NCBI GenBank assembly: GCA_037721215.1
Contig: JBBJNV010000010.1
Location: 1 to 64,000 of the forward strand
From: Gemmatimonadaceae bacterium
GTDB taxonomy: Bacteria; Gemmatimonadota; Gemmatimonadetes; Gemmatimonadales; Gemmatimonadaceae
Length of the DNA stretch: 64,000 nucleotides
Direction: 5' to 3'
Shown here: one piece after another, positions 4,678-51,252 of the stretch
How the letters are laid out: every line of letters starts with the position of its first letter
Numbering within the stretch: the stretch's first letter is position 1
Notes under the pieces: model-generated
Told to the model about the DNA's origin: nothing
The model's input: the letters and a program-made list of their open reading frames with translations, nothing else
Database searches by the model: none
Translations under genes and position numbers: made by a program

Positions 4678-5913
4678 GTGACAGTCGGAAACAGAGTCTC
4701 CATTCGTGTCGCCACTCTGGCGGTGATTGCCCTCGCATGCGCGCCAGGTCAAACGCGGCTCGCGAAGATCGAAGCCGCGCCAGCGACGGCTCTCTACGCG
4801 TGGGCGGCTTCGGCTGACACATCACGGCGCGGTGCCTTTCTCGCCGTGTTCGATTTGCGTGGGGGGTCTCCAACCGCCGGCAGGATAGTCGGGGCGGTAT
4901 CGGCGGGTCTGGGCGGGCGTGGAACTCATCACTCCGAGCACCATCTCGGGGACGACGGACTCCTCTTTGCCGATGACTTCGGACTTGGTCGAACGTCGAT
5001 ATTCGATCTCACCAATGCGTTTGCGCCGAGGCTGGGAGCGTCGTTTACGAGTGCGGGACCGTTGGGCTGGCCGCATTCGTACGTGAGGCTTCCTTCGGGA
5101 AACCGGCTCGTCACGTATCAGTTCCAATCCTCGAAATTCAACCTGCCGCCGGGCGGTATTGCGGAGGTCAGGGCGGATGGAACCATTATTCGCTGGGCGA
5201 GTGCAAGGACAGAGGGAGTCGACGACAAGGAACTGACGCCCTACAGTCTCGAGGTCATTCCGTCGCTTGACCGCGTGGTAACGACGACCACCAGCATGAT
5301 CGAGGATACGGGCGTCGGCGTTCAGATCTGGCGGCTTTCGGATTTCAAGCTGCTTCACACGCTTCGCATACCCGGCGGTCCTCCGCACGGGATGATGCAT
5401 GACACGGACACTGCGCAGCGCCACCTCTTTCCCGGCGAGCCGCGGGTGCTGCGTGATGGGAAGACAGTGATGCTCGCGACGTTTACATGTGGACTTTACA
5501 CGGTGACGGGGGTGGATACCGACGCGCCGCGGGTTCAGCCGGTGTACACGTTTCCGGGGAAGGATTGCGCGGTGCCAGTCGTGATTGGCGACTACTGGGT
5601 GCAGACTGTTCCAGAGCTTCACGCAGTTGTGGCGCTGGATGTATCGAATCCCTTTGCGCCGAGGGAGGTGTCGAGGGTTGGGCTGGGGACAGGCAGCAGG
5701 CCGCATTGGCTGGCGAGCGATGCGACGGGGCGCCGGCTTGTCGCCAACGACGGGTCACGGCGGGGGACCGAGCTGTATCTGCTGCGGTTTGATCCTGCAA
5801 CAGGAACGCTTACGCGCGACGCGGCGTTTCCGGTGCTCGATATGGCGCGGGTGAGTGTGCCGGGGATTGGTGAGGTTCAGGGGGTGCCGCATGGGGCGGT
5901 GTTTTCGCGGTGA
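4678..5913 (+). CDS. Beta-propeller lipoprotein, selenium-binding/methanethiol-oxidase-like
   Basis: Starts at GTG 4678. A short signal with lipobox LACAP (Cys at about residue 21) predicts a lipoprotein. The rest is a repeated four-strand pattern typical of a beta-propeller, with His-rich turns THHSEHHLG, WPHSYVRLPSG, GPPHGMMHD and SRPHWLASD. These turns recall the metal-site histidines of the SBP56 (selenium-binding protein/methanethiol oxidase) family, whose copper-dependent members oxidise methanethiol. The similarity is judged by eye and could be only to propellers in general. It lies between the minisatellite and a DUF1304 gene on the same strand. No strong ribosome binding site is seen, so the start is tentative. 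Confidence 0.6.
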   Translation: MTVGNRVSIRVATLAVIALACAPGQTRLAKIEAAPATALYAWAASADTSRRGAFLAVFDLRGGSPTAGRIVGAVSAGLGGRGTHHSEHHLGDDGLLFADDFGLGRTSIFDLTNAFAPRLGASFTSAGPLGWPHSYVRLPSGNRLVTYQFQSSKFNLPPGGIAEVRADGTIIRWASARTEGVDDKELTPYSLEVIPSLDRVVTTTTSMIEDTGVGVQIWRLSDFKLLHTLRIPGGPPHGMMHDTDTAQRHLFPGEPRVLRDGKTVMLATFTCGLYTVTGVDTDAPRVQPVYTFPGKDCAVPVVIGDYWVQTVPELHAVVALDVSNPFAPREVSRVGLGTGSRPHWLASDATGRRLVANDGSRRGTELYLLRFDPATGTLTRDAAFPVLDMARVSVPGIGEVQGVPHGAVFSR

Positions 5914-5975
5914 GTCGCAGGGAGGGCGGTGATGGAACGAAGTGATCAGTAATCCATCAACCGGAGGCGATTGTC

Positions 5976-6332
5976 ATGACGACTGCCGCTAGAATCGCGA
6001 TCGGCGTCGTCGCTGCGCTGCATGTCTATTTTCTTGTGCTGGAGATGTTTCTCTGGACTAAACCGGCCGGCCTCAGGGCGTTTGGGCAGACTCCTGAGCG
6101 AGCGGAAGCGTCGAAGGTGCTTGCGGCGAACCAGGGGCTTTACAACGGGTTTCTGGCTGGGGGCCTGGTGTGGAGTCTTGTCCTGGGAGACGAAGGCAGG
6201 GGCGTCGCGATATTTTTTCTCGCGTGTGTGATCGTCGCGGGCTTATTTGGGGCGGTGACGGCGAGTCGGAAGATACTGTTCGTGCAGGCGATTCCGGGAG
6301 TGATTGCGTTGGTGTTGGTGGTGATGTCGTAG
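5976..6332 (+). CDS. DUF1304 small integral membrane protein
   Basis: A protein of 118 residues with four hydrophobic helices, beginning ARIAIGVVAALHVYFLVLEMFLW and containing the signature NQGLYNGFLAGGL typical of DUF1304 family proteins. The length fits the family (about 115-125 residues). ATG 5976 is preceded by GGAGG at the right distance. The molecular role of DUF1304 is not established; it is an inner-membrane protein. It lies 62 bases after the beta-propeller gene and may share its transcript. Confidence 0.85.
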   Translation: MTTAARIAIGVVAALHVYFLVLEMFLWTKPAGLRAFGQTPERAEASKVLAANQGLYNGFLAGGLVWSLVLGDEGRGVAIFFLACVIVAGLFGAVTASRKILFVQAIPGVIALVLVVMS

Positions 6333-6540
6333 GATGTCAGACGGGTCGCATTTGAATCTACCTCCTTCAGGCGCAATTGCTGCACATGCGCAAACACTGC
6401 CGCGCGCAGTTTCGAATCGAACGACGTATGATTCATGAAGATTCAATGTCGCAGCAAATCATGCACCCGGCGATATGCGAGTAACCGCGAAAGCCTCCTT
6501 CGCGAAAACCAACAATTTTGTACTTCGCTATTGCGACAAA

Positions 6541-7116
6541 ATGCTCACGACTTCCATGACTCCTGCCGCGAAATCCCGCCCGCACGATCACTGCTACCTC
6601 GTCCCCGGCACCCGCCTCATTGCAGGCCACTACCCCGGCAGCTTCGACCCCGACGAAGGCCGAACCAAACTCAAATCCCTCCTAGACTTCGGCGTCGACC
6701 ACTTCATCGACGTCACATCCCCCGACGACCGCTTGACGCCCTACGAGGAAATGCTCCGCGAGGAAGCAGGTGCACGCGGAATCGAATATCGCGCGTTCCC
6801 GATCCCCGATATGGGAATCACCGATCCCAACACCATGAACCAAATCCTCGACGATCTCGATGCCGCCGCCGAGTCAGGCCACACCACCTACATCCATTGC
6901 TGGGGAGGTGTCGGCCGCACCGGTACTGTCGTCGGCTGCTATCTCGTGAGGCACGGTCGCACCGGTGACGATGCCCTCGACGAAGTGAACCGACTCTTCA
7001 GAACGACGAAGCAGTCGAGTCGTTTCCCCGAGGGGTCGCCTCAGATGCATGCGCAGCGTGAGTTCGTCCGGGACTGGGCGCGTTATGATGATGCGTCCAG
7101 ACAGACCGAGCAATAA
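6541..7116 (+). CDS. Dual-specificity/tyrosine phosphatase family protein
   Basis: The catalytic loop HCWGGVGRTG (C-x5-R) marks a cysteine-based protein or phosphoinositide phosphatase of the PTP/DSP superfamily. Upstream, an aspartate-containing loop IPDMGITDPN is placed like the general-acid loop. The frame is open from 6475, but the conserved region starts with YLVPGTRLIAGHYPGS; ATG 6541 or ATG 6556 are the better starts, though neither has a strong ribosome binding site. The protein is short (about 190 residues), soluble and without a signal peptide. Similar bacterial proteins carry a PGxFxxGxYPG start. With two Ser/Thr kinases in the window it may belong to phospho-signalling, but no operon link is visible. 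Confidence 0.8.
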   Translation: MLTTSMTPAAKSRPHDHCYLVPGTRLIAGHYPGSFDPDEGRTKLKSLLDFGVDHFIDVTSPDDRLTPYEEMLREEAGARGIEYRAFPIPDMGITDPNTMNQILDDLDAAAESGHTTYIHCWGGVGRTGTVVGCYLVRHGRTGDDALDEVNRLFRTTKQSSRFPEGSPQMHAQREFVRDWARYDDASRQTEQ

Positions 7117-7275
7117 CGGCGGGCTGAAGCTTTCACCTCTCGCGACGCAATACGGGCGACTCCTCCACAGTTCGCAATCGCCGGCAATTACGCGCTGCCT
7201 GACTGTCAGAGGGCCCCCATATACTTCCAGCCAGAGATCGTATCAGCTGCGGTTCCTCCTCTCTCCCGGAGTGCA

Positions 7276-35664: not shown

Positions 35665-36342
35665 CTATATGTTACTAATGCGAACTACCTCTTCTCCTGC
35701 AATGGCGTAGGTACTCCGTCCCGGCTCTGGTTCGATATTGGCGAGTCCGGTGAAATCACCGAACGCAGGAAGGATCGCCGAGCTTTCGTCAAACACGAAG
35801 CACGGAAGGCGTACCCGCTCGCGACCGGCTCCGTAGAGGCGAATGCCGGGATGAACATGGCCGGCGATGACATATCCATCCGGATGTACTGCCGGGTAAT
35901 GGCTCATCGCGAATGGGCCGATCAGGAATGGGGCGTTCTCACAGCGAATACCGAGCTCCCCGGGCGGATCTCCCGCATGACGGTCGTGATTGCCGCGCAC
36001 AAGCAGCAGCTCGAGATCACTGTTCGCCTTTCGCCAGTCTGAGAGTGCATCGAGCACATCGATTGACCTTCCCGCTTTCGCGTGAAGCAGGTCACCGAGA
36101 AACACGATGCGGCGCGCGCGAGTGCGCCGGGCAATGGATTGCAGTCGGTCCAACGCCTCGTGGGTCGTGCCGGACGGAACGGGGATGCCGCCGGCTCTGA
36201 ACGCCGCCGCTTTCCCGAAATGCAGGTCGGCAACGAGCAGTGTATCGGTGTCCCTCCACCACACAGCCCGCTCCGGCATCAGTGCCAGTGTCTGTCCGAA
36301 GAGCGAGACTGTGCAGTCGCCGCATGGCACTGCCTCGCTCAC
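35665..36342 (-). CDS. pdeM: Ligase-associated DNA repair endonuclease PdeM (metallophosphoesterase)
   Basis: A calcineurin-like metallophosphoesterase with DLHFGK, GDLLHAK, GNHD and GHVHPGI. The short size (225 residues) and the FVFDE/LPAFGDFTG ending mark the PdeM family of ligase-associated repair proteins. The GTG start overlaps the stop of the upstream helicase gene by four bases (GTGA). It is the last gene of the four-gene repair operon. Family members act as nuclease/phosphodiesterase on damaged DNA ends; the exact substrate is not settled. Confidence 0.92.
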   Translation of the reverse strand: MSEAVPCGDCTVSLFGQTLALMPERAVWWRDTDTLLVADLHFGKAAAFRAGGIPVPSGTTHEALDRLQSIARRTRARRIVFLGDLLHAKAGRSIDVLDALSDWRKANSDLELLLVRGNHDRHAGDPPGELGIRCENAPFLIGPFAMSHYPAVHPDGYVIAGHVHPGIRLYGAGRERVRLPCFVFDESSAILPAFGDFTGLANIEPEPGRSTYAIAGEEVVRISNI

Positions 36343-38933
36343 CCAGCCGCCCGCTCGAGAGCCCGCTGCATCCGTTTGACACGATCGGAGAGTTTTTCCG
36401 ACGACACGCGCTCCCGCGTCCGGTCGACCAGAAGCGGAAACGCAAGCGGCGGCGTGCGCTTCGGATTCATCACAATAACCTGCGCCGCGGAGATGCGTTG
36501 CAGCGTAAGACCAAGCCGCGTGCGCTCCAGCTGTCGCTCCAGAACTTCGCGACGCGCCTGGCCGAGCAGCATGTTGCCCGCGTCGTACCTCATGAATACA
36601 TCGAAGAAGAGGCCGCTCGAGGCCTGAAGCTGGCGGTCGGTCTTGCCCGACCGTGGGAATCCAGGGAAAACAAGGCCCGCTACGCGCGCAATTTCCCTGA
36701 ACTGTCGTCGCGCCATCTCCGTTGCGTTGAGTGATGCAGGGATATCGCCAACGAGATTGTGTGCATCGAGGAGCCCATTAGCGAGCGCCTCCTCTATCGG
36801 CGCTTCATCGGGCGAGAGCAGCTCGAATCCGTAATCATTGGACGACATCGAGAAGGTGATCGGACGGATTCGCGAGATGCGCCACGCAAACAGGGCTGCG
36901 AGCCCTTCGTGCACCAGACGGCCTTCAAAGGGAAAGAAAAAAAGGTGATGACCTTCCCGCGAGGCCACCCGCTCGATGAGAAACTCACCGGGACCAGGGA
37001 TTCTCGACCACTTTGCCTGAACCTGAAGAATGGGCTGAATGGCCTGCATCTCGGGGCCACGGAATACTCCCCGTGCCGCTTCGCCAAGGCGATTGCGCAG
37101 AGCGGAAGCGAGCTCTCCCGAAAGCGGCATCCTGCTGCCTGCCCATCTCGGAACTGCCCCTTTTACGCTGGGCGCTCGCCGCACCCACGCCACCATGTCA
37201 CGCACCCTGATAAACTCCAGCGGCGCACCCGCAAAAAAGAAACGGTCACCCTGACGAAGGCGGGCAATGAACGACTCCTCAACGGATCCGAGTCTGCCTC
37301 CGCGGAGATACTGAACGACGACGTGTGAGTCGCTGACAATGGTGCCAATCGTCATCCGGTGCCTGCGAGCCATTGTCCGGTCCTCAACACGCCAGCGCCC
37401 CTCAGCATCGGCGCGCACCTTCGAATATTCCGGATATCCCTTTAGCGCTTCACCGCCATTGCTGACAAATGAGAGCACCCAGTCCCATTCGTCTTCCGGA
37501 AGGTCAGCGAACGCGTCTGTCTGGCGCACTTCGTCGAACAGCTCGGCAGGCATAAAACCCTCTCCGACAGCAATGGTGACAACGTGCTGAGCGAGAACGT
37601 CGAGGGGACGAATTACCGGATACCGTGATTCGATGGCCCCTGACTCGACACCGTCTCGAGCTGCGGCGACTTCAATGAGCTCGAGCGTGTGAGTGGGAAC
37701 GCATGTCACTCTGCTTGCCGCTCCCGGCCGGTGACCGCTTCGTCCGGCACGCTGCGTTAATCGCGCAATTCCCTTTGGGCTGCCGATCTGGATCACTCTG
37801 TCGACTGGCGAAAAATCGACACCGAGATCGAGACTGGATGTCGCGACCACACAGCGAAGACGTGCCGTGCGCAGGCCCTCTTCCACCCAGTCGCGGCGCT
37901 TTCTGTCGAGCGATCCGTGATGGAGCGCGATCGTGCCGGCCCAATCGGGACGCTGTGCGAGAATCGCCTGGTACCAGATCTCGGTTTGCGACCGGGTGTT
38001 GGTGAATACGATCGCCGTCTCGCCTTCCTCGATCGCTGCAACAACCTGCGGCGCCATCTGCGTGCCAAGATGTCCAGCCCACGGAAATCGTTCGATCACC
38101 GGGGGAATAAGCGAGTCGACGATGATACTTTTTGGCTCGACACCGCGAACCATTCGCGATGACGTCGCCATGGTCGCGCGGCCGAGCAGAGTGGTTTTCG
38201 CGTCGTCAATGTTTCCGATGGTTGCCGACAGACCCCACGTGCGGAGTTGCGGGCAGATTCCTCGCAGTCGTGCGAGTGCAAGCTGAGTCTGCACGCCGCG
38301 CTTGGTGCCCATCAACTCGTGCCATTCATCGACCACGACCACCCTCAAGTGGATAAACTGATCGGATGCATTCTCCCGGGAAATGAGCAGCGACAGGCTC
38401 TCGGGAGTTGTAACCAGCGCCGTTGGTAGCCTGCGCGCCTGGCGTGACCGCAAAGCAGATGTCGTGTCGCCGGTTCTCGTCTCCACACTCCACGGCAGAC
38501 CGAGGTCGGTGACCGGCTGCAGCAGGGCTGCAGTCGTGTCCGCGGCAAGTGCGCGCAGCGGCGTTATCCAGAGCACCCGGAGCGGCGGCGCCGAGTTGCG
38601 CGCTGAGCGTTTTCTGCCTGGCGGCGCCGTCGAATCGTGCGCGTTTCCTTCAGCGATAAACTCCAGGAGCGGCCCCACCCAGGCAGCCAGTGTTTTCCCG
38701 GTACCGGTTGCCGCGTGAATAAGCCCGCTCTCGCCGCCAAGGTAAGCGTCCCACACCTCGCGCTGAAATGAAAACGCCTTCCACCCTCGCGAGGCAAACC
38801 ATCCCGCAATCAGCGCATTCGCCGATTTTCTGCCAGTCCGCGGGGATCGTGGGCGCGTGGGCTTTTTCTGACCTTGCTTCGCCGCGGGAGCGTCGGGAAC
38901 GCTGGCACGCGCTGCCGGCGGTCGTGCCGTCAA
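36339..38933 (-). CDS. Ligase-associated DEXH-box helicase (Lhr-like)
   Basis: A superfamily 2 helicase of 864 residues: Walker A ATGTGKTLAAW (about residue 79), DEWH box (VVVDEWHELMGTKRG), SATIGN, TNTRSQTE, and motif VI QRAGRSGHRPG. The C-terminal half is Lhr-like, without the large extra C-terminal extension of full Lhr, so it is the short 'ligase-associated DNA damage response DEXH box helicase'. A basic Ala/Pro/Lys-rich N-terminus precedes the core. ATG 38933 overlaps the ligase stop (ATGA) and its own stop overlaps pdeM. It works with the neighbouring ligase and nucleases in DNA repair. Confidence 0.95.
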   Translation of the reverse strand: MTARPPAARASVPDAPAAKQGQKKPTRPRSPRTGRKSANALIAGWFASRGWKAFSFQREVWDAYLGGESGLIHAATGTGKTLAAWVGPLLEFIAEGNAHDSTAPPGRKRSARNSAPPLRVLWITPLRALAADTTAALLQPVTDLGLPWSVETRTGDTTSALRSRQARRLPTALVTTPESLSLLISRENASDQFIHLRVVVVDEWHELMGTKRGVQTQLALARLRGICPQLRTWGLSATIGNIDDAKTTLLGRATMATSSRMVRGVEPKSIIVDSLIPPVIERFPWAGHLGTQMAPQVVAAIEEGETAIVFTNTRSQTEIWYQAILAQRPDWAGTIALHHGSLDRKRRDWVEEGLRTARLRCVVATSSLDLGVDFSPVDRVIQIGSPKGIARLTQRAGRSGHRPGAASRVTCVPTHTLELIEVAAARDGVESGAIESRYPVIRPLDVLAQHVVTIAVGEGFMPAELFDEVRQTDAFADLPEDEWDWVLSFVSNGGEALKGYPEYSKVRADAEGRWRVEDRTMARRHRMTIGTIVSDSHVVVQYLRGGRLGSVEESFIARLRQGDRFFFAGAPLEFIRVRDMVAWVRRAPSVKGAVPRWAGSRMPLSGELASALRNRLGEAARGVFRGPEMQAIQPILQVQAKWSRIPGPGEFLIERVASREGHHLFFFPFEGRLVHEGLAALFAWRISRIRPITFSMSSNDYGFELLSPDEAPIEEALANGLLDAHNLVGDIPASLNATEMARRQFREIARVAGLVFPGFPRSGKTDRQLQASSGLFFDVFMRYDAGNMLLGQARREVLERQLERTRLGLTLQRISAAQVIVMNPKRTPPLAFPLLVDRTRERVSSEKLSDRVKRMQRALERAAG

Positions 38934-40558
38934 TCGCTGCCCTGATCCACGGCGTCCACTCCACCGTCCGTGGATAGCAGCAGTGCTTTCAACATGTCGA
39001 GAGTGTCTGCTTCGTGCGCGGGCTTGTCCTTACGCCACCGCAGAATGCGCGGAAATCGCACGGCGATCCCGGACTTGTGTCGTGGCGATGCCTGAATTCC
39101 CTCGAAACCAAGCTCGAACACCTGCTCCGGCTTCACCGATCGCACCGGGCCGAACTTTTCTGTGGTGTTCCGCCTGATCCAGACGTCGAGCTCGCGGATC
39201 TCAGCGTCGGTAAGGCCGGAGTATGCTTTCGCGAACGGCACGAGCGCTTCACCGTCACGGACGGCAAAGGTGTAGTCGGTGTGCAGCAGTGCCCGCCGTC
39301 CATGGCCCGATTGCGCATAGACCATGATAGCGTCCACGGAATAAGGTTCCAGTTTCCATTTCCACCACCCGCCCTTGCGGCGGCCGACGCCATAGTGCGT
39401 ATCGCGGCGCTTGAGCATCAGCCCCTCGGAGCCAAGCGAGCGTGCCTTGGCGCGCGCCGCGCGAATATCGTCCCATGATGATGCACTCACTACCGGCGAA
39501 ACGAGAATTCGCGACTCGGCATTTACTGCTCCCACCATCTCCACCAACATCCCCCGTCGGACAGAGAGCGGCATGCCACGCAAGTCCTCTCCATCAAGCT
39601 CGAGCAAGTCGTAAGCGAGGATGACGATCGGAACTTCGGCACGGATGCGGGCGCTCAGATTCTTGCGCCCGATGCGCCGCTGCAGCTGAGCGAAGGGGAG
39701 AGGGCGACCGTCCCGCCATGGCAGAATTTCGCCGTCGATCACGGTTCCGTCCGCGAGCCATACCGATGCATCGATGATCTCGGGAAACCGATCGGTGATG
39801 AGCTCATCGCCGCGTGACCAGAGATACGAAAGACCATCGCGCCGGATGAGCTGAGCACGAATTCCGTCCCACTTCCATTCCACCTGCCAATCGAACACGG
39901 AGCCGAGGTCGTCCAGCTCGGTTTCGAGCGAATATGCGAGAAAGAATGGATAGGGACTCGATGCCTGCGGCGCTTCAGTACCTGGTGCAACGAGCCGCGT
40001 ATACGCCGCAGCCGAAGGCTGCCAGTCGCCGGCGAAGCGATGGGATATCACTCCTTCCGGCACTCCGCTCGCGCGCGACAGGCTGCGCAAAAGCAGAGAC
40101 TGCGAAACGCCGACGCGAAGACTGCCCGTTATCAGCTTGTTCCACACAAACCGCTCTACCCCACCCAGCGCGTGCCAGGCTTCGACGACAATAGTGCGCT
40201 GCATTTCCTCAGAGGCTTTTCCGATCGGCAGCAGCTTTTCCTCAACCCACAGATGCAACGCGAGATCGCTCGACTCGGCGCTTTCAGGTAAAAGGAGGGC
40301 AATCGTTTCAGCGAGATCCCCAACAGCATGATACGATTCCTCGAACAGCCATTCCGCGATTCCCGAGACTTCCATCGCCCAGGCCGCGAGCCTGCGCACT
40401 GGAACAAGTCGCTTGGGACGCCCTCCGCTGAGAAAGTAGACGGCCCACGCTGCATCGTCTGGCGATGCTTCGGAGAAATAGCGGCTCATGGCGTCGACTT
40501 TGGCGTTGATGCGGGTGGTGGAGTCGATCTCGGAGAAAAGCCGGGCGAAACGCTTCAT
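38930..40558 (-). CDS. ATP-dependent DNA ligase of the repair operon
   Basis: ATG 40558 overlaps the upstream exonuclease stop (ATGA) and is chosen over the longer open frame to 40858, whose extra 100 residues are Arg-rich nonsense. The N-terminal domain (MKRFARLFSEIDSTTR...) is followed by the nucleotidyltransferase core with the adenylation motif EWKWDGIRAQ (Lys is the AMP acceptor), DGEILPW, EGLMLKRRDTHYGVGRRKGGWWKWKLEP, and an OB-fold domain. It seals nicks with ATP. This is the ligase of the ligase-associated set, distinct from the NAD-dependent LigA used in replication. Confidence 0.95.
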   Translation of the reverse strand: MKRFARLFSEIDSTTRINAKVDAMSRYFSEASPDDAAWAVYFLSGGRPKRLVPVRRLAAWAMEVSGIAEWLFEESYHAVGDLAETIALLLPESAESSDLALHLWVEEKLLPIGKASEEMQRTIVVEAWHALGGVERFVWNKLITGSLRVGVSQSLLLRSLSRASGVPEGVISHRFAGDWQPSAAAYTRLVAPGTEAPQASSPYPFFLAYSLETELDDLGSVFDWQVEWKWDGIRAQLIRRDGLSYLWSRGDELITDRFPEIIDASVWLADGTVIDGEILPWRDGRPLPFAQLQRRIGRKNLSARIRAEVPIVILAYDLLELDGEDLRGMPLSVRRGMLVEMVGAVNAESRILVSPVVSASSWDDIRAARAKARSLGSEGLMLKRRDTHYGVGRRKGGWWKWKLEPYSVDAIMVYAQSGHGRRALLHTDYTFAVRDGEALVPFAKAYSGLTDAEIRELDVWIRRNTTEKFGPVRSVKPEQVFELGFEGIQASPRHKSGIAVRFPRILRWRKDKPAHEADTLDMLKALLLSTDGGVDAVDQGSD

Positions 40559-41592
40559 TCGGGTATCGTTTCGCCGGGCGCGACCACATCCTCTTCGATC
40601 TCCCCTTCCCAGTGGCTTGCGAGCGATTCCGCGCGAAGCCCCCGCTCGCGCAGCGCACGTACCACCGCGTCGCGATACCCATGGGTGACGATGACGCGTT
40701 CGGCCCCTGTGGCGTCGATAGCGGTCATCAATGCTGGCCAGTCGACGTGATCGGAGAGGGCAAAACCACGGTCCACCGACCGTCTGCGTCGCGCACCGCG
40801 CACTCGCATCCATCCTGACGCGAATGCTGTCGACGCAGGCCCAAAACGTCTGAGCCATGTCGAGCCCGCTGCTGATGGCGGCGCAACGATCAACGCGCCC
40901 GTCCAGTCGTGCCCCTTTTCCACCGATCCGGCGTATGTAGTCGGCGGCAAGGCGATGCCGGTGTCGCGGTAATCCCGATTCAGCCGCTCAACTGCCCCAT
41001 GTGTGTAAAAACTGCCGTGCGCGAACGGTGCGAGGCCGGCGAGAACGCGCTGCGCTTTGCCAAGCGCGTAGGCGAACACGATTGACGCGCGTCCGGCATC
41101 GCGGTTGGCGCTCCACCATGATGCCATGTCGGCGAACGTTTCGGCTTGCGCTGTCCACCGGTAGATTGGAAGTCCGAATGTGGATTCGGTGACAAAGACG
41201 TTGCACGCAACCGGCACGAACGGCGTGCACGTCGGGTCTGGTTCGGTCTTGTAATCGCCCGACACGACCCAGATCTCACCCTCGTATTCCACCCTTATCT
41301 GCGCCGAGCCCAGTATATGGCCCGCTGGATGAAAGGAAATTCGGACGCCGTTGATGCTGAACCCTTCGCCCCACCCAAATGACTCTATCGATGCATCGGG
41401 TCCGATGCGAGTTCGCAACACCCTCTCGCTTTCTGTGGCGCACGCGTAGGAGCGCGATCCCCATCGGGCATGGTCGCCGTGAGCGTGAGTGATGACAGCT
41501 CGGTCGACTGGCATCCAGGGATCGACGTAAAAATCGCCGGCCTCGCAATAAAGCCCGCGATCCGTGGTGCGGAGTAGGTCGGCAGATGGCAT
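40555..41592 (-). CDS. Ligase-associated DNA exonuclease (metallo-beta-lactamase fold)
   Basis: The metal motif HAHGDHARWG identifies the metallo-beta-lactamase fold; further ligand sites are in HPAGHILGSAQIRVEYEG, GDYKTEPDPTC and the final SDHVDW/VTHGY. This is the beta-CASP-like exonuclease of the ligase-associated repair family (COG1236 type). The frame is open from 41688, but ATG 41592 (PSADLLRTTDRGLYCEAGDFYVDPW) matches the family start and avoids overlapping the cupin gene. First gene of the repair operon, with coupled translation into the ligase. Confidence 0.92.
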   Translation of the reverse strand: MPSADLLRTTDRGLYCEAGDFYVDPWMPVDRAVITHAHGDHARWGSRSYACATESERVLRTRIGPDASIESFGWGEGFSINGVRISFHPAGHILGSAQIRVEYEGEIWVVSGDYKTEPDPTCTPFVPVACNVFVTESTFGLPIYRWTAQAETFADMASWWSANRDAGRASIVFAYALGKAQRVLAGLAPFAHGSFYTHGAVERLNRDYRDTGIALPPTTYAGSVEKGHDWTGALIVAPPSAAGSTWLRRFGPASTAFASGWMRVRGARRRRSVDRGFALSDHVDWPALMTAIDATGAERVIVTHGYRDAVVRALRERGLRAESLASHWEGEIEEDVVAPGETIPE

Positions 41593-41630
41593 TTGGGTGC
41601 GTCGGTTTGCAGGTTTCAAGCCCTGCAGGG

Positions 41631-42080
41631 CTATGGACGTCGGGCTGCGGGGCGGCGCTTGCTGGGATAATCGGCGATGTTTTCCCATTCGCTTGCGTCC
41701 GAGCGGGCGACGACAGCGACAACCGGATCGACGTCGCTGAGGTTACAGACCTCGTGAGGCACCCCGGGTTCGATGAAGATGAAATCCCCCGCGCGATTGT
41801 CGACGCTTTTATCGAGCCCGGCCCCATACTCGTGGCGCACGTTTCCTTCGAGGATGTAGAGCATAACCTCGAAATCCACGTGGATGTGCGCATGCGCGAC
41901 GCCGCCGGGCGGGATAGTCGCAACGTTCATGGAAAGTTTCCGCGCCCCGGTATTTTTTCCCGAGAGGCCTGTCTTGTATCGGATCCCGTTCCAGCTACGG
42001 TTCGTCCCGGCTGCCCGAATTACGAGAATTCCGTCGCTTCCTTCGACGTATGCGGTAAGATCGTCAGTGTCGTCAGACAT
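41631..42080 (-). CDS. Cupin-domain protein
   Basis: A single cupin domain of 149 residues with the two conserved cupin motifs: VAHAHIHVDFEVMLYILEG (metal-binding His-x-His and Glu) and IFIEPGVPHEVCN (second His). Such small cupins bind a divalent metal and act as dioxygenases, isomerases or ligand sensors; the sequence does not say which. It is on the same strand as the repair operon, 38 bases before its first start, so readthrough is possible although no functional link is known. Confidence 0.88.
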   Translation of the reverse strand: MSDDTDDLTAYVEGSDGILVIRAAGTNRSWNGIRYKTGLSGKNTGARKLSMNVATIPPGGVAHAHIHVDFEVMLYILEGNVRHEYGAGLDKSVDNRAGDFIFIEPGVPHEVCNLSDVDPVVAVVARSDASEWENIADYPSKRRPAARRP

Positions 42081-44122: not shown

Positions 44123-45208
44123 CTAACGACGGGGCGACGCGACATGTCGGCATCGCTGCCACGGACCATCTCCTGCCAGAGACAGCACCCGAACGGCTTC
44201 CTCCTCGACGCCCAGTTCGGCCAATGCACAGCCGTGATAGCCGACCGCCGCCCGGTCGTTCGGAGCAAGGGAGCCGGCAATCACGAAATGGCGATCGGCT
44301 TCCACGAGGTCATCTCTTGAGACGAGCTCGCCGGATTGAAGACGCCCTGAGGCAGTCGCCTTCGCAAGGTGATTGAGGCCCAGTTCGCGATGTGTCGACC
44401 CGTTGTCCGGCTCGCGCTGAACGGCGGTCTGGAGATAGTCGCCGGCTTGTGAAAGATCACCTGCATCAGTTCGCATCTTTGCGAGGTAAAGGAGCGCCAG
44501 CGCGGAACGAGGGTACGTCATCGCTGCCTGGGCCAGCTCCCGCTCTGCGGTGATGAGATCACCCCTGCGAAACGCATCGATACCACGCTGTGTCTGCTCG
44601 GGAGTTCCCGTCATCAGACCTGTCGACTGCCCGAGGTCAACCACAAATCCTTCGATCCCCCCGCCGACCAGCAGAAAGATTCCCCCGATCGCCAGCGCGA
44701 TAAACAGAAACACCAATATTGCAAACCTGACGATGCAACCCTTGATCGGCAGCGAGGGAAGCTTGACCGCAGGCGCCGGCTCAGGCCGCGTAACTTCCTC
44801 TACTCTGTAACCCGCGCGCTCCCGCTCTCCCGGGGACAGGATTTCGAGAAGGTCTTCGAGCGATGGACGTTCGGGCGCTACCTCTGGCTCGGGTACCATG
44901 GGCGGACGCGCCCGGACCCGCTCACGCGGCGGCGCGATGTCGCGCAGGACAGGCGGCGGTGGCGATTCCGGCCGCCGGGGAGTGCGAGGCGGTGCAGTCG
45001 GCGCTGACCGAGGCGCCGGCGGTGCTTCGCGTTTCGGCGAGTCTCCAAATTTCGACCCGCACTGCGCGCATACAGGCTTGTCGAGCCAGACGCCCGGCCT
45101 GTGATTCGAACAGAAGTAACGCACCTGATCGTCCGAGCAGGCTTCGCACTCCCCCGGTCTCATCTGAGTTGTCCCGCATGTGGGGCAGCGGAGCGCCACT
45201 CCACTCAT
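44123..45208 (-). CDS. Zinc-ribbon, single-TM, TPR protein (last gene of the VWA-kinase-phosphatase unit)
   Basis: The N-terminus has several Cys pairs (CPTC, CEAC, YFCSNH, CAQC; residues 8-50), likely two zinc ribbons. A long Pro/Arg-rich linker (60-150) follows, then one membrane helix (about 158-183) and, outside or in the periplasm, a TPR domain (about 205-330) of repeats such as GIDAFRRGDLITAERELAQAA and PRSALALLYLAKMRTDAGDLSQAGDYLQ. The linker is rich in Ser/Thr/Pro and could be a phosphorylation target. The start overlaps the stop of the upstream phosphatase gene (ATGA). It probably anchors the signalling unit at the membrane; this is inferred from context. Confidence 0.75.
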   Translation of the reverse strand: MSGVALRCPTCGTTQMRPGECEACSDDQVRYFCSNHRPGVWLDKPVCAQCGSKFGDSPKREAPPAPRSAPTAPPRTPRRPESPPPPVLRDIAPPRERVRARPPMVPEPEVAPERPSLEDLLEILSPGERERAGYRVEEVTRPEPAPAVKLPSLPIKGCIVRFAILVFLFIALAIGGIFLLVGGGIEGFVVDLGQSTGLMTGTPEQTQRGIDAFRRGDLITAERELAQAAMTYPRSALALLYLAKMRTDAGDLSQAGDYLQTAVQREPDNGSTHRELGLNHLAKATASGRLQSGELVSRDDLVEADRHFVIAGSLAPNDRAAVGYHGCALAELGVEEEAVRVLSLAGDGPWQRCRHVASPRR

Positions 45209-46602
45209 GTTGCTACCTGTTCCACAGGATCAGGCGGACTGCCGTCACTTGTCTCCTCGGGATAACAGCTCCGAATTAACGCTTCCGGCAGGTGCAGCCG
45301 ATACACCTGCGGCAGTGATCCCCTGATCCATCGTGCCACGGTTGGTACCCGCAAGTACGGTCCGTACAACTCGCGCTTGAGCCGCCGCGAAAGCGCGACA
45401 GTGGTGAGCACCGGAGTGCGGGAATACGCCGGATAGATTTCGAACCTTTCGTCAACGTGGTCGTGGCCTCTGACCATGTGCGTCACAGGCCGGCCGAGCG
45501 TATGGCTAAGCGCGCAGAATGCGGCGAAATCCTCGTAGCCGAATTGGCTTCCGCGCGACATCCGGTTCGGAAGCTTCTTCCGGGCCCGCGGATGAGCGCG
45601 GCTCCAGACGTAGTCAGTGAGGCATCGAGGATCGTTCCAGTCTCCCGAAGCCGCGAGGCTCGCGTGAAGATCGGTCAGAGGAAATCCACCATGTGCCGCA
45701 AGCAATCCATCGGGAAAGAACAGCGCGCGTGGTGCATCGGCAGTAATCCTCACTGCCAGCTTTCCCGCCCGGCCGATCCATTCGTGGGCAAGGTTCTCGT
45801 TGAGGAAATCGGAAAAATCCGATGGCGATATCGTTGCCGTGAAGCGTGCCCCGTTGTATCCAAGTGCTTCGTCGTGATTGCCGGCGATAAAGCAGATCGT
45901 CTGCGGACGGTCGAGAATGAGCTCGAAAACTCGAAGCAGCGTTTCCAGACCGTAGCCTCCGTCATCGAACAGATCGCCCAGCAGAACGATGCGCGCGCGC
46001 ATGGCGCCTTCCCGGCCCGCCTCACGGTCTATCAGGGCAAGCGCAGTATCCAGCGCGAGAAGGTCACCATGAATGTCGCCGATGAACCAGAGCGGTTCGT
46101 CGGACACTTCCGTCAGCCGCAGTGCGCGGTCAGACCTACTCGTTCGATGATCGTCGAACAGCATGCCCGCCCCACCTTCAGAATCGAGCAGCGCCTCGAG
46201 CCGTTCCACCGTCCCGCGGATACGCGCGCGAAGAGCGCCCGGACCAAGCGACGCAGCGATGGCGTCCCAGTCGAGGTCGCGGACATCGACGACCGGCGGA
46301 ATGGGCGCAACGGCCAATTCCGGCTCCCGGTCATCCGGCAATGTGCCGGCAGCGGATTCATCAGGGCCAAGGTCGCCGTGTATCTCGGGGGCCGCGCGGG
46401 AGGGCACGTCTGCTTCCTCGCCGACGTCTCCTTCCTCGCCGATGTCTGCTCCCTCACCAACGTCAGCTTCCTCACCGGGCCCTGCTTCCTGGGGCGCCCC
46501 GGAAGCCGTTTCCAACGCCGGTTCAATCCCGGAGTCGCCGGCCTTTGATCCTGCATTATCATCCGGCGCGCTTGATTCGCCGGCGGCCGCCTCAGCCGAC
46601 AC
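45205..46602 (-). CDS. PPP/calcineurin-type protein phosphatase with acidic N-terminal repeat
   Basis: The catalytic domain has the complete PPP-family metal motifs GDIHGD, GDLFDDGG and GNHDE, then HGGFPL and RGHDH, as in bacterial Ser/Thr phosphatases related to PP1/PP2A. The N-terminal 120 residues are disordered and acidic, with four hexapeptide repeats. The frame is open from 46653, inside the kinase gene; GTG 46602 (SAEAAAGESS) overlaps the kinase stop by only 11 bases and is preferred. With a kinase before it and a VWA protein before that, it probably removes phosphates placed by this kinase. No signal peptide or membrane helix. Confidence 0.85.
   Translation of the reverse strand: MSAEAAAGESSAPDDNAGSKAGDSGIEPALETASGAPQEAGPGEEADVGEGADIGEEGDVGEEADVPSRAAPEIHGDLGPDESAAGTLPDDREPELAVAPIPPVVDVRDLDWDAIAASLGPGALRARIRGTVERLEALLDSEGGAGMLFDDHRTSRSDRALRLTEVSDEPLWFIGDIHGDLLALDTALALIDREAGREGAMRARIVLLGDLFDDGGYGLETLLRVFELILDRPQTICFIAGNHDEALGYNGARFTATISPSDFSDFLNENLAHEWIGRAGKLAVRITADAPRALFFPDGLLAAHGGFPLTDLHASLAASGDWNDPRCLTDYVWSRAHPRARKKLPNRMSRGSQFGYEDFAAFCALSHTLGRPVTHMVRGHDHVDERFEIYPAYSRTPVLTTVALSRRLKRELYGPYLRVPTVARWIRGSLPQVYRLHLPEALIRSCYPEETSDGSPPDPVEQVAT
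46405..46476 (-). repeat. 18-bp repeat encoding acidic hexapeptides
   Basis: Four 18-base units in the N-terminal part of the phosphatase gene encode GEEADV, GEGADI, GEEGDV and GEEADV. They form a flexible acidic spacer in front of the catalytic domain. The unit number is likely to vary between relatives. Confidence 0.85.
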
Positions 46603-47944
46603 GCGCCGTAAGGGGAAGCTTGGATATTCCCTTTGCGCTGCGACCCGCGGCAAGCACGTCGCCGTCGTTCAGTATCCGGGGTGCAGTGAGTGGGACACCA
46701 TTCACTAGCGTTTCATTCACGGTCGCAAGCGCCGGTGTCACAATCCATTGTCTGTCCGGGCGCCGCTCAACAGTGCACTGCGTCGAGTCCCAGAACTCCG
46801 CATCGGGTCCGAAGCGGCGAAGGATTGCCTTGCCAAGAGCTGTTCGAACGCCGATCTGGAGTGATTCACCACCCGCGGCAACCAGTTGGATTTTATCCGA
46901 CGTCAAACCCGATCCCGCTGCCGGCGCCGCTTTCGCGCCAGTGGAGGAACCCGCAATCGGCGATCCTGCAGCCGGCCGCACAGTGCGAGAAGTTGCACCT
47001 GCAGCCCCGGCGGCCGTTCCTGTTCGCGGCGCCCGCCCACTCAGCGCCGCGCGGATTGCCGCGGCTGTGGGTCGTTTTTTCGGATCCGGCGAAAGGCACC
47101 GGTGCAAAATCGCGCTCACCTCGGCGTTGCTCGCGGGTGACGGCATCGTCCCCAGCAATGCTGGCGGCTTCAAGTCATACGCTCGTACACGTTTCGCATA
47201 CTCGGCCTGATCCTCCTGCCAGTATGGATGCATTCCAACGAGAAGCTCATACAGAATGAGCCCGCATGTAAAAACGTCGGACTCGAGCACTGGCACCGCG
47301 CCGCGTGTCATGTGCTCGGGTGACCGGTAGTTGTCGGTTCCGACATAGCCCTGATGGCCATGCCACGGCGCTTTCCGGTCAGTGAGCACGGAAAAATCCG
47401 TGTCGATGATCTTCAGCTGGTACCCTGAACCGATCGACGGATCCTCGATCAGATAGGCGTTTCCCGGTTTGAGATCGGCATGTACGATTTTCGATTCATG
47501 GAGAGCAGCGATCCCGGCCATGAAAACTTTGGCCCATGTAACGTGTCTGGCCCAGACCGCGGGGTCCCGGGTTGGGGCTGTTTTCGTGCGTCGGTGAGTC
47601 TCCCGCTCCTCCTCGAGCATGTCGTCCAGGTCGCGTCCATTCTCGACAAATTCATAGGCCGCGAAGTACGTCGGGCCTCCCCACCGCTCCTCGAACGCAT
47701 CGATCAGACGAACCGCGTAGTGGGCTGCCTTCCCCTTGCGAATCCGGCTCGACAGCTCCTGCTGGTAATCGACAAAGGGCGCGTACCAGACCACGGTTGG
47801 AGAAGGGGATTTGTACTGCTTCAGGAATATCTTGTCCCCGCCTGGCGCCTGAGCGCCGTAGGATATCGCCATCATCCCCGGGCCGAAGACTTTCGTCACG
47901 CGGTACCCGCGGATGGTGTCTCCGACCCTCAGTTTTTTTGCCAT
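46592..47944 (-). CDS. Ser/Thr protein kinase with C-terminal FHA-like domain
   Basis: Residues 13-300 are a kinase domain of divergent type: the glycine loop reads FGPGMMAISYG, the ATP lysine lies in IFLKQY (42), the catalytic loop is HADLKPGN (Asp 157; Ala instead of Arg, so a non-RD kinase), and the metal-binding loop is DTDFS rather than DFG. Then come an Ala/Gly/Thr-rich linker (305-345) and a C-terminal FHA-like beta domain (355-445: LQIGVRTALGKA, NETLVNGVPL, ILNDGDVLAAG). FHA domains bind phosphothreonine. The gene lies between VWA and phosphatase genes (24-base gap upstream, overlap downstream), suggesting a phosphorylation switch made of kinase, FHA reader and phosphatase. Confidence 0.88.
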   Translation of the reverse strand: MAKKLRVGDTIRGYRVTKVFGPGMMAISYGAQAPGGDKIFLKQYKSPSPTVVWYAPFVDYQQELSSRIRKGKAAHYAVRLIDAFEERWGGPTYFAAYEFVENGRDLDDMLEEERETHRRTKTAPTRDPAVWARHVTWAKVFMAGIAALHESKIVHADLKPGNAYLIEDPSIGSGYQLKIIDTDFSVLTDRKAPWHGHQGYVGTDNYRSPEHMTRGAVPVLESDVFTCGLILYELLVGMHPYWQEDQAEYAKRVRAYDLKPPALLGTMPSPASNAEVSAILHRCLSPDPKKRPTAAAIRAALSGRAPRTGTAAGAAGATSRTVRPAAGSPIAGSSTGAKAAPAAGSGLTSDKIQLVAAGGESLQIGVRTALGKAILRRFGPDAEFWDSTQCTVERRPDRQWIVTPALATVNETLVNGVPLTAPRILNDGDVLAAGRSAKGISKLPLTARVG

Positions 47945-47968
47945 CGTGCGCTCCGGAGCGGTGCTGTC

Positions 47969-49057
47969 CTAGAGCGCCAGCGTTTCAGCTGATCGCGACA
48001 CGCTCGCCGCGAGTTGTTTGAGAGTCGTGCGGAAATTCGCCGGATCGGCGGTGAATTTCTGCAGCGCCTCCTGTGGGTTCAGGCCTTCGTACTCGACCAC
48101 TTCCCACTCGCTCTTGTCGATCTGACTGAGTCTGTCGTAGCCCTCGAAGTTGGGCGCAAAAAGGCTGAGAATGATGCGATTGGCCATGACGACATTGGCT
48201 ACGTCCTGCAGCGCGCCGCCTTTCGCCTCGGGAATGCTCATAGTCTCCTTGAATGAGGCATCTGTGAAGACCACCACGACACGGGCGGCCTCGCTGCGGT
48301 ATCGCCACTTGTTCGCTTCTTCCGACTGAGCGCCCTTCGGCGACGCTTCCATCGTCGAGACCTTGTAGATCGCGTCCAAAAGGGACTCGGGTTCGTCGCC
48401 TCCGCCCTGCGCCTGCAGTTTGGAGAGCTGGGCCTTCAGAGCAACGGCGTCGCGGACGAAGGGATGATCCTCCATCCATTCCAGGCCTTCGCCGCTCGCC
48501 GCCTCGATGTCGCGGTAACCGACGACCTTTCCGCGCCAGTCCCGCACGGGCGCTGCATTGTTGGCATCTCCTGAGCTCAGCGAGTCCACGAACGCTTCGA
48601 TGTTCTTGCGCAAGGCGTCGATGATAGGCGCCATGCTTCCGCTGACGTCGATGAGAAACACGACGTCGGCGACCCCTTTGGTCTTTTCGCGGGTCTGTGG
48701 CGCTGCAGTGGGGGCGGCAGGCGCCGCTTCGCCCTGGAGCCCTTCAGGGACAGCAGGGTCCGAAGCGAAGGCAGGTGGAGCAGCGGAAACCGCGGGATCA
48801 CCTTCGGCCATCGGAGTGGAGCCAGCATCGGCGCCAGATGGCACCCCGCCACCGTCGGCGCCCGCGCCACTGCCAGCGCCAGATGGCATGCCGCCACTGT
48901 CAGGGTTGGACGGCATAGCGCCGCCGCCCGACGACCTATCGCCGCCGGTGGAACCACTTGCCCCGTCTGCAGCCGGTACCGGCGGAGGGGGCGCATCTGC
49001 CGACGGGATGTCCGGTTCTGGTGGCATTCTGGATTCGGTATCTTCTGGGGTGGCCAT
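47969..49057 (-). CDS. VWA (von Willebrand factor A) domain protein
   Basis: A Pro/Gly/Ala-rich, low-complexity N-terminus (residues 1-125) is followed by a VWA domain with a full MIDAS: DVSGSM (Asp 137, Ser 139, Ser 141), a conserved Thr region, and FTDAS. The fold extends to about residue 345 (RVVVVFTDASFKETM, RIILSLFAPNFEGYDRLSQI). No signal peptide, so cytoplasmic. The domain resembles TerY-type VWA proteins in size, and the neighbours are a kinase and a phosphatase as in TerY-P units. It is the first gene of the four-gene unit; a promoter should lie in the 255 bases shared with the divergent ferritin-like genes. Confidence 0.88.
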   Translation of the reverse strand: MATPEDTESRMPPEPDIPSADAPPPPVPAADGASGSTGGDRSSGGGAMPSNPDSGGMPSGAGSGAGADGGGVPSGADAGSTPMAEGDPAVSAAPPAFASDPAVPEGLQGEAAPAAPTAAPQTREKTKGVADVVFLIDVSGSMAPIIDALRKNIEAFVDSLSSGDANNAAPVRDWRGKVVGYRDIEAASGEGLEWMEDHPFVRDAVALKAQLSKLQAQGGGDEPESLLDAIYKVSTMEASPKGAQSEEANKWRYRSEAARVVVVFTDASFKETMSIPEAKGGALQDVANVVMANRIILSLFAPNFEGYDRLSQIDKSEWEVVEYEGLNPQEALQKFTADPANFRTTLKQLAASVSRSAETLAL

Positions 49058-49312: not shown

Positions 49313-50185
49313 ATGTCCAAGATTCGACAGGACAGCATGAAGGACCTTGGCACCATCGAGACGGGGTTGCAACGGCCGACCAGTCGGCGTGGCTTCGTCC
49401 GGATTATCGGTGCGGGTAGTGCGGCGGCGATGCTGCCTGCGCTCGTCAGTTGCGAAGGGGACTCGATCGCCGTGCCCATCCAACCCGGCGGACCGGGGTC
49501 TGGAGGTGGAGGTACTACACCACCGGGGGGCCCGGCGCCCGTCACCGGAGTGTCGTTCGATCTGAGAACCGACGCCGGGTTCCTGCGTCTGGTTCAGGTA
49601 CTCGAGGAAGTCGAAGCGGCCTTCTACACCGCCGTCGTGGCAAGCTCGAACTTCAACACGTTCTTTCCGGCCGAGGAGCGGGAATTGTTTGTCGATCTCC
49701 GCGACGCCGAGATTATTCACCTTGAAGTCGTCCGCGCCGGGCTCGGCTCGCAGGCGGTTCCCAGCCTGCGGAACAATATCAACACGGCGACGTTGAACAC
49801 GTTCCTTGCCAGCAGGGCGAGCATCATCGCCGCCGCGCGAGGGTTCGAGACCCTGGGTGTGTCCGGGCTCAACGGGTCGGGCAAGTATCTGCAGGACGCC
49901 CGCAACCTTCTGTTCGCAGGAAAGATCGTGTCGGTTGAAGCACGTCACCTTGCCGCGCTCCGCGACATTTCCGTGCCGGGCGGCACCGCAAACACAGCGT
50001 TCGCCAGCGATGACACCATCGACGCCATGGGGCGGGACATCAAGCTCGAGGCGGGCGACATCATTGCCCGTGCGGCCGCGACCAACATCCTTCTGCCCAA
50101 CACGCTCGCAGCGCAGCCCATCAGCAATCAGCCGACCGCCACACAAGGCGTGCCGACAACCAACTTCATCACACCCACGCCATAA
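49313..50185 (+). CDS. Tat-exported ferritin-like protein 1
   Basis: ATG 49313 follows GGGAGG. The twin-arginine signal TSRRGFVRIIGAGSAAAMLPALVSC ends in a Cys, so a Tat lipoprotein is possible. After a Gly/Pro linker comes a ferritin-like four-helix bundle: VLEEVEAAFYTAVV, ELFVDLRDAEIIHLEVVRAGL, and VSVEARHLAALRD, with Glu and ExxH-type metal ligands (E of LEE, D/E-x-x-H, E-A-R-H). It belongs to the ferritin-like/desiccation-related PCC13-62 group. Folded export with bound metal fits the Tat route. The next gene encodes a second such protein 20 bases on. Confidence 0.88.
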   Translation: MSKIRQDSMKDLGTIETGLQRPTSRRGFVRIIGAGSAAAMLPALVSCEGDSIAVPIQPGGPGSGGGGTTPPGGPAPVTGVSFDLRTDAGFLRLVQVLEEVEAAFYTAVVASSNFNTFFPAEERELFVDLRDAEIIHLEVVRAGLGSQAVPSLRNNINTATLNTFLASRASIIAAARGFETLGVSGLNGSGKYLQDARNLLFAGKIVSVEARHLAALRDISVPGGTANTAFASDDTIDAMGRDIKLEAGDIIARAAATNILLPNTLAAQPISNQPTATQGVPTTNFITPTP

Positions 50186-50205
50186 GCGCTCAGGAGTACT
50201 GATAA

Positions 50206-51252
50206 ATGAAAACGAATCAACAGCCGATCCTGGACGCTATCGATCCAGAGATCATCGAAAGGCTTGTATCCCGCCGCGACGCCATTAGAAAAGGCGCGTC
50301 GGTGAGCTCGATGGTTGCGACCGGTCTCGCAATGGGCTCCGTGCCGGTGATGCTGGCCGCGCTGAGCCGCGACGTGTTCGCGCAGGCGCCGTCGGACATT
50401 CTCGATGCTCTCCAGTTCGCGCTCATTCTCGAGCACCTTGAGAATGAGTTTTACAAGGCAGTGCTTGGGACCAGCGCACTGGCGGCGCAGAATAACGCGT
50501 TCGCACCTGTCCGCGCACTGATCCCCGCCTCGGCGCGGGAAACCTTCATGCAGATCCAGAAGCACGAGCAGCAGCATGTGGACTTCCTGCGGACAACGGC
50601 GATTCCGCTGTTCGGCGGAACGGCTCCAGCGATTACCGCCGCGGATTTCGACTTTACCGGTGGTAACGGTAGTGGCACAGGACCGTTTCTGTCCGCGACC
50701 ACGAATCTCGATGTGCTGCTGCTCGCAACGCAGGCGTTCGAGGACACCGGCGTTCGCGCGTACAAGGGACAGGCTGGCCGGTTCCTGATTGCAGGCAACA
50801 CGAATGCCGATATTGCGATGGAGAGCGCGCTTCGCATTCATTCAGTCGAAGCACGCCACGCTTCGAAGATCCGGCGCATCCGCCGCCAGCGCAACCCGAG
50901 CGACACTACGCTGCGGTTCAGTGGATACATTCGCGGAGGGGGCGCTGCCGCAGCGGGCGCAGGCAACATCGCCAACCCGCCGGCCGAAGTTGTCGCAGCA
51001 TTGAACCTGATTTACGGCGGCGGCACGGGTCCGGTATCGTTCCCCGACAGCAATACGCGCCATGTGATCTTTAACGGTACGGCGGAAGTTATCGTGGATG
51101 CGGCGACCGTCGGCGGCACATCGGCGATCGGGGGCGCGGCCGCGCAGCAGCTTGCCGCGACTCAGGCTTTCGACGAAGCGCTGACGAAAGCCGAAGTGAT
51201 AACCATCGTTCAGGGTTTCATCAGGAACGATCCAGCGCGCGGACTGCCATAG
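50206..51252 (+). CDS. Tat-exported ferritin-like protein 2
   Basis: A CAGGAG box precedes ATG 50206. The signal SRRDAIRKGASVSSMVATGLAMGS is Tat-like, with probable cleavage near VFAQA (residue about 63). The ferritin-like bundle has FALILEHLENEFYKAVLG, IQKHEQQHVDFLR and LRIHSVEARHASKIRRIR, giving a full set of Glu and ExxH ligands for a di-metal site. A Gly-rich insert separates helices 2 and 3. The paired gene upstream shares the VEARHxxxxR motif. Likely role: storage, oxidation or detoxification of iron or manganese outside the cytoplasm; not proven. The operon ends at the terminator that follows. Confidence 0.88.
   Translation: MKTNQQPILDAIDPEIIERLVSRRDAIRKGASVSSMVATGLAMGSVPVMLAALSRDVFAQAPSDILDALQFALILEHLENEFYKAVLGTSALAAQNNAFAPVRALIPASARETFMQIQKHEQQHVDFLRTTAIPLFGGTAPAITAADFDFTGGNGSGTGPFLSATTNLDVLLLATQAFEDTGVRAYKGQAGRFLIAGNTNADIAMESALRIHSVEARHASKIRRIRRQRNPSDTTLRFSGYIRGGGAAAAGAGNIANPPAEVVAALNLIYGGGTGPVSFPDSNTRHVIFNGTAEVIVDAATVGGTSAIGGAAAQQLAATQAFDEALTKAEVITIVQGFIRNDPARGLP

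Follow-up and report, generated by a model that had tools for sequence, protein, structure and literature searches.

A candidate phosphorylation switch in a conserved VWA, kinase, PPP-phosphatase and zinc-ribbon gene cassette of scattered bacteria

What could four adjacent bacterial genes accomplish together when they encode a VWA protein, a Ser/Thr kinase, a phosphatase of the PPP class and a membrane protein with a zinc ribbon? The question is raised by a 64,000-nucleotide stretch of a Gemmatimonadaceae bacterium (contig JBBJNV010000010.1, our contig C10, from a genome of 3.5 Mb), hereafter called the window. A preliminary description had proposed a self-contained phosphorylation switch at this locus. 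On balance we favour a form of that proposal, namely that the cassette is a self-contained switch, held at the inner membrane and passed on horizontally, which works by reversible Ser/Thr phosphorylation. The four open reading frames (ORFs) run on the minus strand from position 49057 to 44123, joined by the 24-base gap, overlap and ATGA junction previously described, and comprise the following features:

47969..49057, minus strand: gene 1, VWA protein of 362 aa (ORF, Pfam, invariant residues of the metal ion-dependent adhesion site, MIDAS)
46592..47944, minus strand: gene 2, Ser/Thr kinase of 450 aa (ORF, Pfam, invariant catalytic residues, structural model)
46592..46906, minus strand: C-terminal FHA-fold domain of the kinase, residues 347-450 (PF00498, structural model)
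45205..46602, minus strand: gene 3, PPP-class phosphatase with a proposed GTG start (motifs, profile search)
44123..45208, minus strand: gene 4, zinc-ribbon membrane protein (Cys pairs, hydropathy, relatives)

The gap lies between the VWA and kinase genes (window 47969 to 47944), and the start of gene 4 overlaps the phosphatase stop as ATGA. The phosphatase ORF as listed spans 46653-45205 and opens with a TTG at 46653. With an alternative GTG at 46602-46600, the phosphatase gene would overlap the last 11 bases of the kinase gene (GTGTCGGCTGA). Judged from the sequence, the GTG is most likely the start and the TTG is doubtful, since the GTG better matches the coupled ATGA-type junctions seen in relatives (e.g., loci L035, L036 and L041).

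Gene order and distribution of the cassette

Relatives were collected by tblastn of the four proteins, and nearly all of them keep the order VWA, kinase, PPP phosphatase, zinc ribbon. They come from Gemmatimonadota, Acidobacteria-labelled metagenome-assembled genomes (MAGs), Rhizobium, Microvirga, Methylobacterium, Sphingomonas, Polaromonas and Myxococcota, the closest carriers being MAGs of Gemmatimonadaceae and Gemmatimonadales. Three of the loci (L032, L033, L047) are truncated where their contigs stop, the genes of L054 and L055 lie in a different arrangement, and gene 4 of L053 was identified by reading. The neighbourhood check thus bears out the expectation that the four genes stay together in relatives, and their description as a self-contained unit agrees with a conserved four-gene order between flanks that are not conserved. 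Flanking genes recur only in close kin, except for a ferritin-like pair common to the window and L028.

Pairwise distances of the VWA, kinase and phosphatase proteins correlate (r 0.91-0.97), and each of the four genes has a ratio of nonsynonymous to synonymous substitution (dN/dS) of 0.05-0.30; all four are under purifying selection. Given this selection and the order kept in relatives, chance is excluded as the source of the arrangement. The host genome holds 35 kinase and 11 metallophos family matches, and the gene 3 phosphatase was matched there only once.

The cassette is rare. Its phosphatase was matched in 7 of 298 Gemmatimonadota genomes (in one, G252, by a short fragment only), and the cassette occurs in 5 of 148 Rhizobium genomes. 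Myxococcota yielded one clear case among 235 genomes, plus two distant stand-alone phosphatases, and there was a single carrier each among 247 genomes in the phylum of L054 and 246 in that of L053. The nine plasmid records with the cassette are all megaplasmids (1.1-1.4 Mb) from Rhizobium or Microvirga, and six are typed as conjugative. Being rare, patchy and present on such megaplasmids, the cassette is probably mobile. In the tree, Gemmatimonadota are intermixed with Acidobacteria-labelled MAGs, and other Gemmatimonadota branch separately; horizontal spread is the simplest reading.

A search for a conserved fifth neighbour gave no such gene in the crown group. The deeper relatives L026-L028, L053 and L055 carry one more small gene, of zinc-ribbon/FHA-like type, that separates kinase from phosphatase and is missing from the window's group, so the window's form of the cassette is probably reduced.

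The four proteins and the proposed switch

Gene 1 clears the Pfam cut-offs for VWA_4 and VWA. Its domain begins at about residue 128, after a low-complexity N-terminus, and no transmembrane segment was seen in the protein. The MIDAS motif DVSGS occupies residues 137-141 (48649-48635), and GGGDE and FTDA are also present. Positions D137, G140, S141, D221, T265 and D266 are invariant in all 23 aligned sequences, in agreement with the full MIDAS that had been ascribed to this protein.

The kinase domain of gene 2 (about residues 10-302) clears the Pkinase cut-off (E 5e-25) and carries the Hanks-type features: the beta3 Lys, alphaC Glu, HxDxxxxN and DFG Asp. K42, E63, H155, D157, K159, N162 and D183 are invariant across 30 aligned sequences. 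The structural model has a pLDDT of 85.8, and its top Foldseek matches are PknB and CaMKII. Because the matches listed for the whole kinase were kinases only, the C-terminal domain was modelled alone. Pfam did not call FHA on the full-length kinase; the isolated domain clears the cut-off (23.3 vs 20.7 bits), and PF00498 was matched by 33/33 C-terminal domains in the kinase alignment. PDB profile matches of the domain were mostly known FHA chains, KIF13B being the best (E 5e-4). Its model (pLDDT 94) aligns to the FHA domain of GarA with Z 13.1 and a root-mean-square deviation of 1.8 A over 89 residues. The predicted fold is thus clearly that of an FHA domain, and the earlier assignment of a non-RD kinase with a C-terminal FHA-like domain holds, with HAD as the variant motif.

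What this domain does is another matter. The preliminary description had the kinase's own FHA domain reading the phosphorylated mark, and here the evidence points elsewhere. In the pocket the Gly is kept, the Arg of GR is replaced by Lys in 27/30, and SxxH is absent in 30/30, the Ser position being variable and the His position Cys, Met or Phe; K372 and N410 of the domain are kept. The places of the Ser and the His were fixed by their distance from the conserved Trp, with GarA as the guide, so that the register is our assumption. With a degenerate binding pocket in which only the Gly and Asn are kept, a role as phosphothreonine reader appears doubtful. A canonical FHA domain is found instead in the membrane zinc-ribbon gene of one deep relative, L053, a gene that combines a zinc ribbon, the FHA domain (PF00498, E 1e-15; GR, SRRH and STNGT) and hydrophobic helices. 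Two related loci also contain extra stand-alone genes (L028 7312-8952 and L026 13542-14339) with long low-complexity regions rich in Ser, Thr, Ala and Pro, which end in the FHA-like domain that the kinase also has; their products are possible substrates or scaffolds.

Gene 3 clears the Metallophos cut-off (PF00149, E 2e-12; catalytic core about 46095-45454) and gave no PP2C match. A PDB search with its alignment profile led to BSU1, calcineurin, PP5 and PP1, the best at E of about 1e-10. The metal-ligand motifs GDxHG, GDxxD, GNH, HGG and RGHDH are conserved among 32 sequences, and ORF residues 363-364 form an invariant Asn-Arg pair. The proposed calcineurin-type assignment is supported as to the PPP class, with the reservation that the Arg of GDxxDRG is mostly replaced; the acidic repeat described with it sits in a variable N-terminal stretch. 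The two distant Myxococcota phosphatases related to gene 3 (L071 2892-4598 and L072 9446-11122) were considered as cassette members and rejected, as they stand alone; in L072 a marginal TerB match (E 2e-4) lies N-terminal to the phosphatase domain.

Gene 4 encodes a zinc ribbon at residues 8-51 (45187-45056), a transmembrane helix at about residues 162-182 (44725-44663; hydropathy peak 2.9 at residue 162) and a tetratricopeptide repeat (TPR)-like tail from residue 207 (about 44590 on), for which Pfam TPR matches were below cut-off only. The fourth protein of relatives is mostly 140-210 aa long and consists of a zinc ribbon, a Pro-rich linker and a C-terminal transmembrane helix; Cys pairs and linker are kept, and most end with the hydrophobic helix. 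Of the zinc-ribbon, transmembrane and TPR architecture first described, the ribbon and the helix are therefore conserved. The TPR tail, limited to the window and L030 (L031 is cut by a contig end), is a local addition rather than part of the core; a cytoplasmic N-terminus would place it on the outer side of the inner membrane.

Taken as parts of one device, the four proteins suggest a mechanism. The kinase would add phosphate to a target shared with the PPP phosphatase, which would take it off. The MIDAS-containing VWA protein may act as an adaptor or regulator coupling the kinase to a partner, and the zinc-ribbon protein may use its C-terminal helix to hold the resulting complex at the membrane. 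Docking, rather than classical phosphothreonine reading, would then be the main role of the kinase's FHA-fold domain. In favour of the proposal are the kept gene order between variable flanks, the correlated distances, the purifying selection, the invariant kinase residues and phosphatase metal ligands, the hydrophobic helix that ends most fourth proteins, the patchy, partly megaplasmid-borne distribution with its mixed tree and, in the Fibrobacteraceae relative L055, a single protein made of kinase and VWA (5361-7178). Three observations weigh against this proposal. The kinase is of the non-RD kind (HAD), with DFS replacing DFG. The Arg of GDxxDRG in the phosphatase is Asp in 29/32 sequences and Arg in two only (L053 and L055); in PPP enzymes this Arg contacts phosphate, so that activity may be altered. 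The Acidobacteria-labelled loci come from MAG contigs, for which a binning error is possible.

A relative in a secretion locus and possible alternative roles

One deep relative points toward type VI secretion systems (T6SS). It is the Desulfovibrionaceae locus L054 (6179-14447; L073/L074), where a T6SS locus includes a divergent kinase and PPP phosphatase, with a VWA gene nearby; on one side of them is tssG and on the other are PAAR/DUF2169/VgrG-like genes. Pfam identified TssG, TssF, gp25, DUF2169 and a PAAR-like protein there, and the contig also carries TssB/VipA; further tss and vgrG genes were picked out by eye from the beginnings of ORFs. One could therefore suppose that the cassette is a detached branch of T6SS post-translational control, descending from or working like the threonine phosphorylation pathway (TPP) and governing a contractile or other envelope machine. 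It would fit that PpkA of the TPP has kinase and VWA parts in one protein (PMC1262709) and that its partners are a phosphatase and an FHA protein (PMC5995506). The sheath gene VipA was also found in four of the five other intact Gemmatimonadota carriers vs 43/298 genomes overall, although these carriers are large genomes too. However, it was not found in the host genome or in one other Gemmatimonadota carrier, and only 6 of 26 carriers outside Gemmatimonadota have it. L054 is moreover a single case, as no further T6SS-embedded relative was found among 199 Desulfovibrionaceae and 247 genomes of its phylum, and the TPP phosphatase is PP2C rather than PPP. We regard this explanation as unlikely, and two further ones as somewhat more so. 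Besides its kinase-VWA fusion, the Fibrobacteraceae locus L055 (1-16425) has AAA ATPases on either side, a PPP phosphatase, a zinc-ribbon gene and two additional VWA genes that weakly resemble TssR_VWA.

An anti-phage role analogous to TerY-P, in which infection activates the kinase and phosphorylation halts growth, is suggested by the shared parts list and by related TerY-P forms that protect against phage (PMC11090510), as well as by a rare, patchy and apparently mobile distribution. PADLOC matched the kinase to MAD6 and PD-T4-6, yet these matches are generic to the kinase fold, and the VWA and PPP proteins match nothing. The flanks show no defence island: of the 25 families that a PADLOC scan listed for 141 flanking ORFs, each matched a single ORF and nearly all were kinase models. 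No relative was found on viral contigs or in phage records, and TerD was found in 0/32 carrier genomes. About equally improbable is a stress or metal response switch, with divalent metals sensed by the MIDAS and the zinc ribbon and the signal passed by the kinase to genes for envelope or oxidative stress. A role as a metal-sensing switch has been hypothesised for TerY-P (PMC11090510), and the cassette has ferritin-like genes close by in the window, in L028 and on a Rhizobium leguminosarum plasmid; but such neighbours occur in few loci, the other flanks are unrelated, and zinc ribbons are often structural. The ferritin-like genes themselves (window 49313-51252; L028 12753-14874, from related Gemmatimonadota; L060 13981-14487, the R. 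leguminosarum plasmid) may be a coincidence. Elsewhere in the window, 36339-41688 holds a cluster resembling ligase-associated DNA repair, with an ATP-dependent DNA ligase (Pfam) and, recognised by eye, a large helicase and a metallo-beta-lactamase-like ORF on the same strand.

The membrane-tethered switch thus remains our preferred reading. More tentatively, the cassette may represent an undescribed mobile class of prokaryotic switch built around a eukaryote-like PPP, which would have arisen in or been recruited by T6SS control and then crossed phyla, taking on new targets as an independent module at the membrane. How such switches might pass between machines is suggested by the relative embedded in a T6SS locus. 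As the kinase-phosphatase pair is genetically defined within a conserved cassette, the role of this kind of bacterial PPP is directly testable, and the presence of the cassette in cultured Rhizobium, Microvirga and Sphingomonas strains makes deletions feasible.

Comparison with known systems

The open-access literature, in which papers on TerY-P and TPP were found, yielded no description of a cassette of VWA, FHA-bearing kinase, PPP phosphatase and zinc-ribbon protein. PMC11090510 describes the TerY-P triad as VWA, kinase, PP2C and zinc ribbon (Anantharaman 2012; Gao 2020). Leaving aside the class of the phosphatase, both systems are small cassettes of these four kinds of part, the kinase being a Ser/Thr kinase, and in each the operon includes a VWA protein with a MIDAS. 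A TerY-P member is expected to have a PP2C phosphatase and a kinase that bears a zinc ribbon or an OB fold at its C-terminus, whereas the present cassette has a PPP enzyme (PF00149), an FHA fold on the kinase and the zinc ribbon on a separate membrane-anchored protein. That the phosphatase departs from TerY-P and that no Ter gene is linked had been anticipated, and both points hold, although ter association is not strict in the known TerY-P family.

Like the cassette, the TPP of T6SS (PpkA, PppA, Fha; PMC5995506) sets a kinase that has VWA and FHA parts against a phosphatase. Unlike it, PppA is PP2C; the VWA protein is a separate gene here, and the host and most carriers are without the T6SS sheath gene. 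Actinobacterial genes linked to GAP1-N2 (PMC7159879) likewise place a kinase with zinc ribbon or transmembrane segment next to a phosphatase and a standalone vWA gene, but use PP2C and are tied to GTPase-centred systems, whereas the cassette has no conserved neighbour. The closest PDB relatives of gene 3 are eukaryotic PPP enzymes (calcineurin, PP5, PP1, BSU1), with which it has the GDxHG, GDxxD, GNH, HGG and NR/RGH motifs in common; it differs from them in the Asp at the GDxxDRG Arg position and in being encoded beside a kinase and a VWA protein in a bacterial operon. In the literature examined, bacterial kinase/phosphatase/VWA modules employ PP2C phosphatases. The cassette would work much like the TerY-P and TPP switches, yet departs from both in defining features, and we read it as a variant of their common theme in which PPP replaces PP2C.

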